Of a DNA stretch of 64,000 nt, positions 52,471 through 59,832 are shown piece by piece; positions within the stretch are counted from its first letter, which is position 1; each line of letters opens with the position of its first letter. The stretch spans positions 744,001 through 808,000 of the forward strand of contig NZ_VOQQ01000001.1 of NCBI RefSeq assembly GCF_007995055.1. Reading direction: 5' to 3'. The stretch comes from Sphingosinicella ginsenosidimutans. GTDB taxonomy: Bacteria; Pseudomonadota; Alphaproteobacteria; Sphingomonadales; Sphingomonadaceae. The position numbers and the translations under genes were made by a program. The notes beneath the pieces are model-generated. The model was given only the letters and a program-made list of their open reading frames with translations, was not told the DNA's origin and ran no database searches.

Positions 52471-53028
52471 ATGGAAGTCTGGCACGGCACGACGATCATC
52501 GGCGTGCGCAAGAACGGCAAGGTCGTGGTCGCCGGAGACGGGCAGGTCTCGCTCCAGTCCACCGTCATCAAGCCCAATGCGAAGAAGGTGCGGCGGCTAG
52601 GCGGCGGCACCGGGTCCGGACAGTCCGGCGTGATCGGCGGCTTCGCCGGCGCGACCGCCGACGCCTTCACCCTCTTCGAACGGCTGGAGCGCAAGCTGGA
52701 GCAGCATAACGGCCAGTTGCTGCGCGCCGCGGTCGAGCTCGCCAAGGATTGGCGCACCGACAAATATCTTCGCAACCTCGAGGCGATGATGATCGTCGCC
52801 GACAGGGACGTGACGTTGATCCTCACCGGCAATGGCGATGTGCTGGAGCCGGCGAACGGCGTCGCGGCGATCGGGTCCGGCGGCAATTTCGCCCTCGCCG
52901 CCGCCAATGCGCTCTACGATTATGAGGAGGATGCGGAGGTCATCGCGCGCAAGGCGATGAAGATCGCCGCCGACATCTGCGTCTACACCAACGAAAATCT
53001 CACCGTGGAGACGATCGAAGCGAAGTGA
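52471..53028 (+). CDS. hslV: ATP-dependent protease proteolytic subunit HslV
   Basis: 185 residues. The proteasome-beta-like core begins at Thr7 ([20 protein letters not shown]), after a five-to-six-residue MEVWHG leader expected to be removed to free the catalytic N-terminal Thr; E. coli HslV has only Met before it. Conserved features follow: [40 protein letters not shown] and [13 protein letters not shown]. An extra Gly/Ser-rich loop ([10 protein letters not shown] after KKVRRL) is about six residues longer than the E. coli loop. It forms the HslVU protease with HslU, but the two genes are here separated by an oxidoreductase gene. Confidence 0.96.
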
Positions 53029-53099
53029 GGGCGGATCGCGCGGCGGCGCGGACGAAAACGGCCTTTCGCCCGCGCGACGAAGGCGGTTACGGTGTCCCC

Positions 53100-54179
53100 A
53101 TGCACCGCCGCGCCTTTCTCGGGTCCGCCGCCGCCACGCTTGCGCTTCCCGCCTGCGCGACCGTGCAGCCACGGATGGCGGCGCGCGGCTGCCTGCCGGC
53201 GGTGGACGTCTCGCCCGATCGCGTGATCCGAACGCTCGCCGGGCTGCGTCCCTTCCGGCCGGCTGGCTTCCGGGTCGAGGCGGCGACGCTCGGCGACAAG
53301 CGCATCGTCCACAATTACGGCCATGGCGGCGCTGGGATCACGCTGTCCTGGGGCACGTCGAAGCTCGCCTGCGACATCGGCCTGCAGGGGCATGAGGGCC
53401 CCGTCGCGGTGATCGGCGCCGGCGTGATGGGCCTCTCGACCGCGCGGCTCGCGCAGGAAGCGGGTTTCGACGTCACGATCTACACGAAGGCGCTGCCGCC
53501 CGAGACGACCTCGAACATCGCTGGCGGCCAGTGGCATCCCTTCGGCCATTTCGACCGCAGCGCCGTGACGGACGAGTGGCGCGCCCGCTACCTCGCGGCG
53601 GCCGCCTATAGCTGGCGGCGGTTCCAGATCATGGTCGGCGACGATTATGGCGTCCGCTGGCTGCCGACCTACAGCCAGGGCGGCGCCGAGGAGCAGCTCT
53701 TCCCCTCTTTCCCGCCGAACAGCCGCGCGCTCCGCCCGGAGGAGCACCCCTTCCCGCTCGATCGCGTCTCGCGCTTCGACACCATCTATGTCGAGGTCGG
53801 CCGCTATCTCCGCCAGATGATCCGCGACGTGCAGGTTGCCGGCGGCGCGGTCCATGTCCGCGATTTCGCGTCCCCGGCCGATGTCGCGGCGCTCCCTGAG
53901 CGGCTGATCTTCAATTGCACCGGGCTCGGCGCGCGGGCGCTCTTCGGCGACGAGACCCTGATCCCGATCCGGGGCCAGCTCGCCATCCTGGAGCCGCAGC
54001 CGGAGATCGCCTACGCCTTCACCGGCGATGCGGGCTATATGTTCCCCCGGCCCGACGGCATCCTGCTTGGCGGCACGTTCGAGCGGAATGTCTGGGACGC
54101 GACGCCGCAGCCCGACGCCATCGCCCGTATCGTCGCCTCGCATCAACGCCTGTTCGCCGGCTTCCGCTGCACCGCTTGA
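53100..54179 (+). CDS. D-amino-acid-oxidase-type FAD oxidoreductase with permuted domain order, Tat lipoprotein
   Basis: 359 residues. Signal: [20 protein letters not shown] has a twin arginine and a lipobox (LPAC, Cys19), so export via Tat and lipid anchoring are likely. The mature protein is arranged unusually. Residues 41-95 ([13 protein letters not shown], then [18 protein letters not shown] at 68-85) match the C-terminal segment of canonical D-amino acid oxidases; R50 aligns with the substrate-carboxylate Arg283 of mammalian enzyme. Only then comes the FAD Rossmann start [20 protein letters not shown] (102-121), [10 protein letters not shown], and [14 protein letters not shown], and the protein ends at [20 protein letters not shown] and ...[12 protein letters not shown], where canonical enzymes continue into GFRPVRP. 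This looks like a natural circular permutation. Placed between hslV (71-bp gap) and hslU (119-bp gap). Activity is not proven. Confidence 0.88.
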
Positions 54180-54298
54180 ACTCGATTGCCGCGCGCCCAA
54201 TCTTGTCGCCCAAGATGGATTACGAACCCCGCGTGCCGGACGCGTCCGGCGTCACCGAACCCCAGAGCGACACCCCAACCCCGAGGAAAGCCGGCCGG

Positions 54299-55600
54299 AT
54301 GAACGACGCCCTCACCCCCAAGGCCGTGGTCGCCGCGCTGGATCAGCACATCATCGGTCAGGACGAGGCCAAGCGCGCCGTCGCGGTGGCGCTTCGCAAC
54401 CGCTGGCGCCGCCAGCAGCTCCCCGACGGGCTGCGCGACGAGGTGACGCCCAAGAACATCCTGATGATCGGCCCCACCGGCTGCGGCAAGACCGAGATCA
54501 GCCGGCGGCTGGCCAAGCTCGCCGATGCGCCGTTCGTGAAGGTCGAGGCGACCAAGTTCACCGAAGTCGGCTATGTCGGCCGCGACGTCGAGCAGATCGC
54601 CCGCGATCTCGTCGAGGAAGCGGTGCGGCTCGAGCGCGAGCGCCGGCGCGAGGCGGTGAAGGGCGCGGCCGAGGCGGCGGCGATCGAGCGGCTGCTCGAC
54701 GCGCTGACGGGCAAGGACGCGTCGGCCGCCACCCGCGAGAGCTTCCGCCGGATGCTCGGCGAAGGCCACCTCAACGATCGCGAGGTCGAGATCGACGTCT
54801 CCGATCAGCCGCAGACGCCGTTCGAGATCCCGGGCCTCGGCGGCCAGGTCGGCATGATCAACCTGAGCGACATGATGAGCAAGGCGATGGGCCAGCAGCC
54901 CAGGAAGAAGCGCAAGATGCCGGTGCGCGAGGCGCTCGCCAAGCTGGTCGAGGAGGAACAGGACAAGAGGCTCGATCCCGATGACCTCAACCGCACCGCG
55001 CTTCGCGATGCCGAGGCGAACGGGATCGTCTTCATCGACGAGATCGACAAGATCGCCGTCTCCGACGTGCGCGGCGGATCGGTGAGCCGCGAAGGCGTGC
55101 AGCGCGACCTGCTGCCGCTGATCGAGGGCACCACGGTCGCCACCAAATACGGGCCGATGAAGACCGATCACATCCTCTTCATCGCCTCGGGCGCGTTCCA
55201 CGTCGCCAAGCCGAGCGACCTGCTTCCCGAGCTCCAGGGCCGCCTGCCGATCCGGGTGGAGCTCAAGGCGCTGACCGAGGCCGATTTCATCCGCATCCTC
55301 TCCGACACGCGCGCGAGCCTGACCGAGCAATATCGCGCCCTGCTCGGGACCGAGGGGGTCAGCGTCGAATTCGCCGAAGACGGGATCGCCGCGCTCGCCC
55401 GCATCGCCGCCGAGGTCAATGAGAGCCTGGAGAATATCGGCGCGCGCCGGCTCCAGACGGTCATGGAAAAGCTGCTCGATGGCGTGAGCTTCGAGGCCGA
55501 GGATCGGCGCGGCGAGACGATTACCGTCGATGCCGCCTATGTCGAGGCGCAGCTCCAGAGCATCGCCCGCAACGCCGATCTCAGCAAATACGTGCTCTGA
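54299..55600 (+). CDS. hslU: ATP-dependent protease ATPase subunit HslU
   Basis: 433 residues. AAA+ unfoldase: [20 protein letters not shown], Walker [21 protein letters not shown], the pore-loop region [18 protein letters not shown], the I-domain (about residues 110-230), Walker [17 protein letters not shown], and sensor/second-region [20 protein letters not shown]. The C-terminal end [13 protein letters not shown] fits the HslV-docking tail. ATG 54299 follows GAGGAAAG. It works with HslV at 52.5 kb, from which it is separated by the permuted oxidase gene. Confidence 0.97.
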
Positions 55601-56517: not shown

Positions 56518-59500
56518 ATGAATCATAAGTCGTTATTTATGTCGGCCGCGGCAGTCATTGCCCTGGCGGCGCCGTCGGTGGCGGCGGCGGAATCACTCGA
56601 CGATTTCAGCATCTCGCCCAACACGTCCAGCCAGGCGCTTGCGACCCGCAGCCTGGTGAGCGCCCAATCGGCGGTCATTTCGACGCCGAACGGCCCCGAG
56701 CAGATGGTGAACGATCCGCAGATCGTCGTCCGCAGCGATCATAATGCCAACCAGCCGCCCCCCACTGGCCCGCTCAGCACGGGCATCAACGGAATCGGCC
56801 AGATCGTCACCGACCAGGGCGGCGGCTTCGTCGGCCTGTGCACCGGCACCCTCATCAACCCGCGCACCGTGATCTTCGCGGCGCACTGCGTGAACGAGGA
56901 AGCGGCCTCGGCCTATGGCGCCGCCAGCGGCGGCACCGCGATCATGGTCGATTTCAACGACAACACGCTGGCGACGCTTCGCCAGTGGCTCGGCCTGGAT
57001 GGCGGAACGCTCTATGCGAGCAATCCGAACGCCCATTACTTCAACATCAACCAGGTCTGGTACGATCCGCGCTCGCTGGCGGATAATTCGTGCACCGCGC
57101 CCGGTTCCTGCTTCCTGCAGGCCGACGTTGCGCTCGGCACGCTCGACACGCCGGCCACCGGCATCCCGACCTGGGCGCTGCTCTTCTCGCCGCTCAGCGG
57201 GCCGACCCACGGGGTCATCACCGGCTACGGCAACAGCGGAACCTCCGCGTCGCGCTCGCTCGCCAACGACTGGCGCCGCCGCGCGGCCGAGAACATCATT
57301 TCGCTGCTCGGCTCGCTCGATGATGTCGACAACTGGCTGTTCTCGGGCGGCCCGTTCACCGACAATCCGCAAAACCTGTACCAGCTGGACTTCAACGATC
57401 CGGCCGGCACCGGCGGTTTCAACGGCACCCGGAACTTCGATTTCGGCATCTTCAACGATTCGGCGCTGCCGAACGAGGGGATCACCGCGCCGGGCGATTC
57501 GGGCGGCCCGCTGATCGCCGACCAGGCCTATAACCGCAGCGTCGTCGTCGGCGTCCTGTCGGGCGGCTCGCGCTATTTCTCGGCGCAGCTGAACAACAAT
57601 TACGGGGCGACCAGCTTCTATCAGCCGCTCTATCTGTTCTGGGACGTCATCGTCGCCAACAATCCCTACGCCTACACCGCCGCGAAGGCCGGCGACGGCG
57701 CCTGGGAGGATCCCAATCACTGGGTCCAGCTGATGGATCCGAACTATTTCGTCGATATCGGCGGCAGCCTGGTCAACGCGCTGCCGACGACGCCGGCGAA
57801 CGGAACCGCCGGCGGCGGCCCGAAGTTCGGTTCGGTCTGCTTCCTCGGCGACTGCATCGATCTCACCCAGTTCGGCACCTCGCTCGGTGCGAACCAGACG
57901 ATCGTCATTCCCGGCGGCCCCGGCTCGACCAACTTCGTGCCGAACAATGTCGATCCGGATCCGGCCCACGGGGTTCGCGCGCATTATTATGACGTGACCC
58001 TGTCGAAGGTCGGCACGACGACGCTGAGCTCGGCCGTGACGGTCGACCGCTTCTCGATCCAGGGAACGGTGCTGACGCTGCTCAACGTCCGTCCGAACGG
58101 CACACTGACGTCGCTGGTCGATTACACGCAGCTCGGCGGCCAGACCAATGTCGACGGTCGGATCAACGTCGGCGGCGATTATCTGCTTGCCGCCGGCCTG
58201 CTCACCGGCCTCGGCACGATCCGCACGCCGTTCCTGACCTCGGCCGCGGGCCGGATCGCGCCGGCGCAGGTCGGCCCGATCGGCACGCTGACCGTCGAAG
58301 GCAATGTCATCCTGGCCTCCGGATCCCGGCTCCAGATCGACCTGACCCGCACGGGTTCGGACGTCCTGCGCGTCGTCGCCGGCGCCGGCAGCCCCGGCCA
58401 GGCCTCGCTCGGGGGCATCGTGCAGTTCCAGACCGGCCTCGGCACCGCGCCGCGCGCCGGCCAGAGCTACACGTTCCTGACCGCGGCCGGCGGCGTCGAC
58501 CTCACCTTCGATTCGGTGCAGTCGAACCTCGGCACGCTCCAGCCCACCGTCACCTACGGTCCGAACAGCGTCACCGTGTCGCTCGCGGCCGGCAGCCTCG
58601 CTGCGACGGCGGCGGCCGGTGGCGGCGGCGGCGGGATCGCCGACACGATCGCCAACCTGCTCGACCAGATCCGCAACGGATCCTATGACGCCCTGTACGG
58701 CCTCTACGGCGCGATCGACGTCATGAATCCGCAGATGCTGGCGGCGACGCTGCGCGGGCTCGCGCCCGATCTCGCGGCGGACGGGGTCGTGATGCAGGAT
58801 CGCCAGAGCCGGATGATGATGAACAACATCACCGACCGTCTCGGCATGCTCGGCACGATCGCTGACGGCACGATGAGCTTCAGCGCCGACAGCGGCCTGT
58901 TCTCGGTGATGGCGGGCAACAGCGCGCCGTCGACGCTCGGCGTCGCAAGCGTCGTCCCCGCAAGCACGGCGATGCACGCCCTTCCGCGCGGCGTCACCGG
59001 CTTCGCGGCGAGCGGCTTCACCAACTCGGCGTCGACGATCGGCAGCAGCCAGGCCGGCGTCTATGGCGGCCAGCGCAACTGGTATGCGAGCATGGGCCTT
59101 GAAACCCAGGTCGCGGATCACGTCACCTTCGGTACCGCGTTCGGCTACTCGCACGGCATTACCCAGCCGGGCGCGGCGCTGTCGCAGAACCAGTCGACGA
59201 TCAGCCAGGTCGCGGCCTATGGCAGCTATCGCCTCGGCCACGGCGCCTATGTGGCCGGCGTCGCCTCGGCGGAAATCAGCCGGTTCGACGTCAACCGCGC
59301 GTTCAGCGCCGGCAACTTCGCCCAGTATTTCGGCGGGGCGACCTCGGCCAGCCGCTATACCGCGATGGCCGAGACCGGCATGAACCTGCCGTTCCACGGC
59401 CTGACCGTCACGCCGCGGGCCTCGCTCACTTATTCGAACTACCATCTGAGCGGGTTCCAGGAGCAGGGCGGCGAAGACGCGCTGAAGTTCGACAGCCTGA

Positions 59501-59832
59501 ACATCCAGCGTCTCGAAAGCCGGATCGGCGCGAGCGTCGGTGGCGAAATGCGGATCGGCCGCAGCGGCTGGCGGTTCCAGCCGCAGCTGCGGGCCGATTT
59601 CGTCAGTGCGCTGTCGGGCGCCAATAACGGCCTCAGCGTCCGCTTCGCGGCGGCGCCGGATGCGGCCTTCATGCTCCCGATCGCCGGCGGCGACCGGGCG
59701 TGGGGCGAAGTCCGCGGTGGCCTGCATATCGGCAACGGCCGGATGAACTTCGGCGCCGGTGTCGAAAGCAGCCTCGGCCGGTCCGATTATCGGGACGACC
59801 GTGCGGTGGCCGACTTCACCGTCAACTTCTAA
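56518..59832 (+). CDS. Trypsin-like serine protease autotransporter
   Basis: 1104 residues. Signal peptide MNHKSLFMSAAAVIALAAPS ends near AAA. An S1-type protease follows with the catalytic triad His123 (FAAHC), Asp203 (QADVALGTLD) and Ser328 (GDSGGPL). A passenger domain of repeats (GTLTVEGNVILASGSRLQID, region residues ~430-700) resembles the beta-helix of autotransporters, and the last ~270 residues form a beta-barrel (QVAAYGSYRLGHGAYVAGVA, FQPQLRADFVSA) ending in VADFTVNF with the terminal Phe recognised by BamA. It should be secreted through its own barrel (type V) and act outside the cell. Terminator follows. Two candidate regulatory sites are upstream. Confidence 0.94.
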   Translation: MNHKSLFMSAAAVIALAAPSVAAAESLDDFSISPNTSSQALATRSLVSAQSAVISTPNGPEQMVNDPQIVVRSDHNANQPPPTGPLSTGINGIGQIVTDQGGGFVGLCTGTLINPRTVIFAAHCVNEEAASAYGAASGGTAIMVDFNDNTLATLRQWLGLDGGTLYASNPNAHYFNINQVWYDPRSLADNSCTAPGSCFLQADVALGTLDTPATGIPTWALLFSPLSGPTHGVITGYGNSGTSASRSLANDWRRRAAENIISLLGSLDDVDNWLFSGGPFTDNPQNLYQLDFNDPAGTGGFNGTRNFDFGIFNDSALPNEGITAPGDSGGPLIADQAYNRSVVVGVLSGGSRYFSAQLNNNYGATSFYQPLYLFWDVIVANNPYAYTAAKAGDGAWEDPNHWVQLMDPNYFVDIGGSLVNALPTTPANGTAGGGPKFGSVCFLGDCIDLTQFGTSLGANQTIVIPGGPGSTNFVPNNVDPDPAHGVRAHYYDVTLSKVGTTTLSSAVTVDRFSIQGTVLTLLNVRPNGTLTSLVDYTQLGGQTNVDGRINVGGDYLLAAGLLTGLGTIRTPFLTSAAGRIAPAQVGPIGTLTVEGNVILASGSRLQIDLTRTGSDVLRVVAGAGSPGQASLGGIVQFQTGLGTAPRAGQSYTFLTAAGGVDLTFDSVQSNLGTLQPTVTYGPNSVTVSLAAGSLAATAAAGGGGGGIADTIANLLDQIRNGSYDALYGLYGAIDVMNPQMLAATLRGLAPDLAADGVVMQDRQSRMMMNNITDRLGMLGTIADGTMSFSADSGLFSVMAGNSAPSTLGVASVVPASTAMHALPRGVTGFAASGFTNSASTIGSSQAGVYGGQRNWYASMGLETQVADHVTFGTAFGYSHGITQPGAALSQNQSTISQVAAYGSYRLGHGAYVAGVASAEISRFDVNRAFSAGNFAQYFGGATSASRYTAMAETGMNLPFHGLTVTPRASLTYSNYHLSGFQEQGGEDALKFDSLNIQRLESRIGASVGGEMRIGRSGWRFQPQLRADFVSALSGANNGLSVRFAAAPDAAFMLPIAGGDRAWGEVRGGLHIGNGRMNFGAGVESSLGRSDYRDDRAVADFTVNF

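Follow-up and report, generated by a model that had tools for sequence, protein, structure and literature searches.

A natural circular permutant of D-amino-acid oxidase (DAAO) was confirmed by sequence comparison in Sphingosinicella ginsenosidimutans, encoded by a single gene in the 64,000-nucleotide stretch of contig NZ_VOQQ01000001.1 that was analyzed here as a whole (the window, contig positions 744,001 to 808,000). In the canonical order of DAAO, the Rossmann motif is N-terminal and the NYGHGG motif C-terminal. This order was not found in the oxidase, which was therefore filed as a permuted variant and not as a canonical member of DAAO. GLRPFRP (residues 48-54) and HNYGHGG (71-77), both C-terminal motifs in DAAO, are N-terminal here. 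The frame at 53100-54179 is uninterrupted in translation, and most close homologues share its start methionine. It is highly probable that the product is a permuted, exported lipoprotein that is homologous to DAAO and probably works like it. The features of the gene are as follows:

53100..54179, + strand: gene of the circularly permuted D-amino-acid oxidase-like protein (359 aa), starting with ATG
53100..53156, + strand: predicted twin-arginine lipoprotein signal, residues 1-19; Arg3, Arg4, and Cys19 are conserved without exception in an alignment of 50 sequences
53190..53192, + strand: Cys31, present in all 50 aligned sequences, on the new N-terminal side of the loop that was opened
53193..53390, + strand: moved segment, residues 32-97, corresponding to the C-terminal part of DAAO, with Arg50 (pig Arg283) and HNYGHGGAG at 71-79
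53391..53399, + strand: joint at residues ~98-100, where the old C-terminus runs straight into the old N-terminus without an added linker
53400..54167, + strand: N-terminal and middle part of DAAO, residues 101-356, with GAGVMG at 106-111, NCTG at 272-275, and Tyr313 (pig Tyr228)
54168..54170, + strand: Cys357 near the new C-terminus, proposed partner of Cys31, invariant in the 50-sequence alignment

Segment order and predicted fold

In a search of the Protein Data Bank (PDB), the native oxidase matched the Rasamsonia DAAO (7ct4) as two swapped stretches, with residues 101-345 placed on 25-298 and residues 38-93 on 316-371. Human D-aspartate oxidase (DASPO) and pig DAAO were likewise matched in two swapped stretches. 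After rotation at residue 100, a single stretch covered residues 3-323 of 329 on 26-371 of 388 in 7ct4, and the match increased from 94.9 to 102.2 bits (E of 5.2e-26 and 3e-28, respectively). Two stretches became one upon rotation in 16 of the 17 DAAO/DASPO sequences common to both tables, while 1c0i was matched as one stretch in both. A first-pass annotation, made from the letters alone, had claimed that the DAAO segments stand in reversed order within one reading frame and that a rotated alignment would cover nearly the full length; both claims hold.

The direct joint of the old termini, which had also been read from the sequence, is borne out by motif spacing. Of 103 genomic rows (95 open reading frames (ORFs) of loci L001-L103, from which six second copies or truncations were dropped, together with L014, L017, L053, and five plasmid rows), 90 place GxGxxG at a distance of exactly 34 residues from NYGHGG. 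The chain runs on for 24 to 30 residues beyond the motif in six canonical actinobacterial proteins, and a few more residues stand before GxGxxG. Judged from this comparison of permuted and canonical proteins, the joint adds no linker.

The AlphaFold model forms one confident globule (predicted local distance difference test, pLDDT, 87; predicted template modelling score, pTM, 0.85) and was closest to DAAO and D-aspartate oxidase in structure comparison. Structural alignment of the model places the DAAO fold over residues 98-354, and Pfam DAO matches residues 102-354 at 116.7 bits against a cut-off of 27.9.

Conservation and taxonomic spread

The protein search assigned E ≤1e-3 to 7919 of 7998 scored candidates. 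In all of the best 120 homologues, one of which is 99% identical to the query, GxGxxG occurred exactly 34 residues after NYGHGG and never before it. The order that had been described from one protein is thus conserved, and since order and spacing are conserved together, chance is excluded. A second search from a signal-less Nonomuraea protein yielded 2809 matches, and in each of the best 120, the Nonomuraea query included, a Rossmann motif lies 38 to 40 residues after an NYGHGG-type motif; rows P0241 and P0212 were each missed by one pattern check and are permuted by eye.

A genome scan, ranked against the permuted alignment, returned at least 594 pattern stretches and 589 relatives, of which the best 80 loci were kept. 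These loci and the best-120 protein lists show conservation and not the permuted share among all DAAOs, as canonical enzymes would rank lower. The scan titles included Pseudomonadota, Acidobacteriota, Gemmatimonadota, Verrucomicrobiota, Bacteroidota, Zixiibacteriota, Eremiobacterota, and one Dadabacteria bin, with many metagenome bins among them. All 103 genomic rows, whose record titles name at least seven phyla, were in permuted order; for loci L001-L103, it was assigned by script in 100 and by a looser pattern in the remaining three. One locus (L074), from a metagenome bin labelled Thalassovita, carries two tandem permuted copies that group with a Bacteroidota sequence, and the label may be wrong.

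The rotated query matched 62 plasmid records (37 of Burkholderia and 10 of Vibrio), 13 of which were examined in full and 49 by their match rows. The 13 comprised seven canonical copies (six actinobacterial and one haloarchaeal), five permuted copies (Niveispirillum, Nonomuraea, Bradyrhizobium, Rhizobium, and Kozakia), and one permuted, frame-broken copy. In Mesorhizobium onobrychidis (L108:1474-2537), a permuted copy is broken into two frames and annotated as two oxidoreductase genes. Plasmid rows of Burkholderia glumae matched the rotated query in a single piece with 27% identity (match rows only), and as they are colinear with it, canonical order occurs in Proteobacteria too.

Among 398 Pseudomonadota genomes, that of S. 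ginsenosidimutans included, the permuted query matched 20 (E ≤1e-20). A canonical Streptomyces query matched 11 (E ≤1e-10; one query, at most five candidates scored per genome), all of which were the permuted gene already found. The gene is patchy in Sphingomonadales, where it was present in 16 of 147 genomes. A permutation unique to this genome was rejected because relatives occur in many bacterial groups; that the permuted form is widespread goes beyond what the first-pass annotation had claimed.

Origin of the permuted branch

In a rotated-sequence tree with 92 permuted and 11 canonical members, all permuted sequences were placed on one side of a branch with a Shimodaira-Hasegawa-like approximate likelihood ratio (SH-aLRT) support of 94. 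A more careful tree of 66 permuted and 10 canonical sequences, from which 26 permuted rows and a long haloarchaeal row were omitted by hand, separated the two groups with support of 100/99, and the branch occurred in 100% of 200 bootstrap trees. We regard the canonical order as the ancestral one because in other structures of the DAO superfamily the part that matches residues 98-354 begins at the N-terminal end. With this ancestral order and a single branch, one permutation suffices, and the trees fit a single origin.

In such an event, the chain would have been opened in the loop that leads from the last helix to the GxRPxRP strand and the old ends joined directly, bringing the old C-terminal substrate-binding segment to the front. 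On inspection by eye, the moved segment is not flanked by the short repeats that were found. A duplicate with the segment at both ends, as an intermediate, was not seen, with no search designed to list one.

Export signal and cysteine pair

A twin-arginine motif, a hydrophobic stretch, and a lipobox cysteine precede the oxidase, as had been proposed. Among the 92 permuted representatives, the twin-arginine motif with the hydrophobic stretch was detected in 88 by script, or 87 after L111 was discarded by eye as a false match, and the lipobox in 71 by script and a few more by eye. Representatives without the twin-arginine signal were L091, L097 (a fragment), L109, L110, and L111. The S. ginsenosidimutans genome encodes TatC and Lgt. 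From the sequence, we infer that the oxidase is exported and lipidated: it would fold with flavin adenine dinucleotide (FAD) in the cytoplasm, pass through the twin-arginine translocation (Tat) pathway, and be anchored by lipid at Cys19, facing the periplasm.

Cys31 and Cys357 flank the chain break, which is in the loop that follows the last helix. Across 101 rows, which include duplicate rows for some ORFs (L101-L103) and rows truncated at contig ends (L067, L073, L080), cysteines occurred at both ends in 33, at neither in 68, and at one end in none; the Fisher p of 2e-27 for this co-occurrence ignores kinship and was not used as evidence strength. Among the 92 representatives, 28 had both, 59 had neither, three had an undefined tail, and two had the N-side cysteine only. 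Both are present in L030, L037, and L048 but absent from their close relative L024. The co-occurrence of cysteines at the two new chain ends suggests a disulfide staple, and in the lineage of this genome the opened loop would probably be re-closed by a Cys31-Cys357 disulfide. A tentative proposal, to which a little less than even confidence is given, is that one ancient permutation moved the chain ends from a buried Rossmann strand to a surface loop and let most of the branch be lipid-tethered outside the cytoplasm, and that in one lineage the Cys31-Cys357 pair replaced the lost peptide connection, making it a cut-and-staple enzyme.

Active site and proposed function

Active-site residues of pig DAAO were mapped over the 92 permuted rows; we take Arg283 and Tyr228 to bind the substrate carboxylate and Tyr224 to belong to the lid. 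Arg283 corresponds to Arg50 and is Arg in all 92 rows, and Pro284, Gly313, and GxGxxG are also found in 92 of 92. Tyr228 corresponds to Tyr313 and is Tyr in 77 rows, while the Thr317 site holds Thr in 66 and Ser in 26. Two pocket positions are changed relative to pig DAAO (Gln144 at Leu51 and His146 at Gln53), so the side-chain specificity may differ.

Homology, fold, and catalytic residues indicate that the enzyme probably works in the manner of DAAO. The carboxylate of a D-amino acid would most likely be bound by Arg50 and Tyr313, the substrate would be oxidized to an imino acid and then yield a keto acid and ammonia, and the electrons would be passed to O2 or a periplasmic carrier.

Genomic context

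The gene lies between the two genes of the hslVU protease:

52471..53028, + strand: hslV, upstream neighbour (NCBIfam HslV, 271.6 bits against a cut-off of 137)
54299..55600, + strand: hslU, downstream neighbour (NCBIfam hslU, 581.1 bits against a cut-off of 362.45)

The end of hslV is 71 bases from the oxidase gene, which is followed after 119 bases by the ATG of hslU (54299). No terminator-like site was found in 52471-55600 by a crude scan, which is consistent with one transcript of hslV, oxidase gene, and hslU. This arrangement occurred in 21 of the 23 Sphingomonadales loci among the best 80 and in none of the 57 others; of the two exceptions, L006 has hslV and then the contig end, and L010 has neither gene within the locus. 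In most of the Sphingomonadales loci examined, the gene of an apparently exported oxidase divides the gene pair of a cytoplasmic protease. Neighbours vary elsewhere, with thiamine pyrophosphate (TPP) enzymes beside rhizobial copies. Neighbour counts other than those of hslV and hslU are lower bounds, as the target ORF was lost in 18 of 86 loci, and as a clue to the substrate, recurrent neighbours are strong for hslV/hslU in Sphingomonadales alone.

In Kozakia (L114:1366-3026), a gene for a c-type cytochrome (PF13442, PF00034) comes next after the permuted oxidase, an order that hints at electron transfer to an acceptor other than O2. On two plasmids (L110, L111), a signal-less permuted oxidase has a TPP enzyme and a further FAD-binding oxidoreductase as neighbours, possibly in a catabolic operon. 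Further downstream in the window, 56518-59832 (+ strand) encodes an autotransporter beta-domain protein (PF03797, 110.1 bits) with a short trypsin-like passenger match (PF00089, 36.7 bits).

Alternative explanations

Several observations count against a permuted, exported, DAAO-like lipoprotein with stapled ends. Structural aligners superposed DAAO on residues 98-354 alone, and the predicted packing of the moved segment in its canonical place is based on pTM and the sequence alignment. Of the structural comparison proposed in the first-pass annotation, the single confident fold and the superposition over 98-354 stood, while the moved segment was not superposed. The trees show an unrooted split, with the root taken to lie on the canonical side. 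The Tyr228 site differs in 15 of the 92 permuted rows, and the column of the lid Tyr224 is a gap in the oxidase and in 80 of the 92; Tyr is not the common residue there in the 11 canonical rows either, which makes the lid Tyr224 a mammalian trait and not one of the family. Of three independent contrasts for the cysteine pairing, made on a tree with the cysteine columns retained, only two were concordant and one had no C-side difference, and two signal-less rhizobial rows carry the N-side cysteine alone. Lastly, the clade that branches closest to the canonical side consists of four of the representatives without a signal (L091, L109, L110, and L111) and of L094, which has a Tat signal. The existence of this clade, which had not been foreseen, makes permutation and export separable, so that export is not a necessary part of the permutation. 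Given this clade, the idea that the permutation served solely as an export device is not supported.

The best surviving alternative keeps the permuted fold and export and changes the chemistry, with the substrate being a cell-wall fragment or an N-substituted or imino compound in place of a free D-amino acid, or with the enzyme being a dehydrogenase that feeds a cytochrome. The two changed pocket positions, the Kozakia cytochrome gene, and a recurrent gene near nine proteobacterial copies with a weak cytochrome match (22.4 bits against a Pfam cut-off of 27, in one representative) speak for it. It is opposed by the invariant carboxylate Arg and Gly of the NYGHGG region, and by a redoxin-family gene (one representative tested) that adjoins five proteobacterial copies on the other strand and would suit peroxide release. 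This alternative appears appreciably less probable than oxidation of free D-amino acids, and is a serious contender all the same.

A history with more than one independent permutation, or with a reversion to canonical order, would accommodate the spread of permuted rows over many phyla, the coexistence of exported and signal-less forms, and a root that was not inferred from the data. The single branch in both the quick and the careful tree and the nearly constant joint spacing throughout make this improbable, and one permutation is preferred. Two unrelated domains lying side by side would explain why the aligners cover residues 98-354 alone, but the N-terminal segment by itself matched the C-terminal segment of DAAO in the PDB search (27.8 bits, native oxidase), and the rotated query aligned as one through both parts in a protein with a pTM of 0.85, so this explanation was rejected as very improbable. 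A frameshift, assembly error, or gene fusion mimicking a permutation, for which the broken Mesorhizobium copy could be a precedent, has a negligible chance given the uninterrupted frame and the identical 34-residue spacing in all 120 listed homologues, by which frameshift and assembly error were rejected; moreover, no GxRP or YGHG-type motif was found in the three forward frames of ~54001-55600 and the next gene is hslU, so no C-terminal signature was missed near 54179. Unrelated domains and a signature missed through a frameshift near 54179 had been named at the outset as what would overturn the permutation, and neither was borne out.

Relation to known enzymes

DAAO (EC 1.4.3.3; pig, human, yeast, and Rasamsonia; 1KIF, 4QFD, 1C0K, 7CT4) is homologous to the oxidase and alike in fold over residues 98-354, and the two have the carboxylate Arg, the Tyr228 site, and the NYGHGG motif in common. 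The oxidase differs from it in the swapped segment order, the Tat lipoprotein signal, the short lid region, and the proposed disulfide at the new ends. Human D-aspartate oxidase (6RKF) also differs in order, and possibly in the binding of a second carboxylate by the side-chain pocket. The actinobacterial canonical DAAO-like proteins (L105, L106, L107, L112, L113, L116), which are the bacterial canonical rows of the trees, are homologous and colinear with the rotated query, with the Rossmann motif first, an NYGHGG-type motif last, and no signal peptide by eye. Glycine oxidase ThiO and other enzymes of the DAO superfamily are more distant (60.8 bits for the oxidase against a ThiO cut-off of 250.8).

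No description of a permuted DAAO was found in the literature searched by title and abstract start, the coverage of which is incomplete. The permuted branch is real, conserved, homologous to DAAO, and apparently undescribed. Source annotations name its members D-amino-acid oxidase or FAD-dependent oxidoreductase, and under such ordinary names the rearrangement passes unseen. A large natural branch of this kind is a ready source of permutants, and its evolution can be used to test what a permutation may bring in export, anchoring, and stapling.
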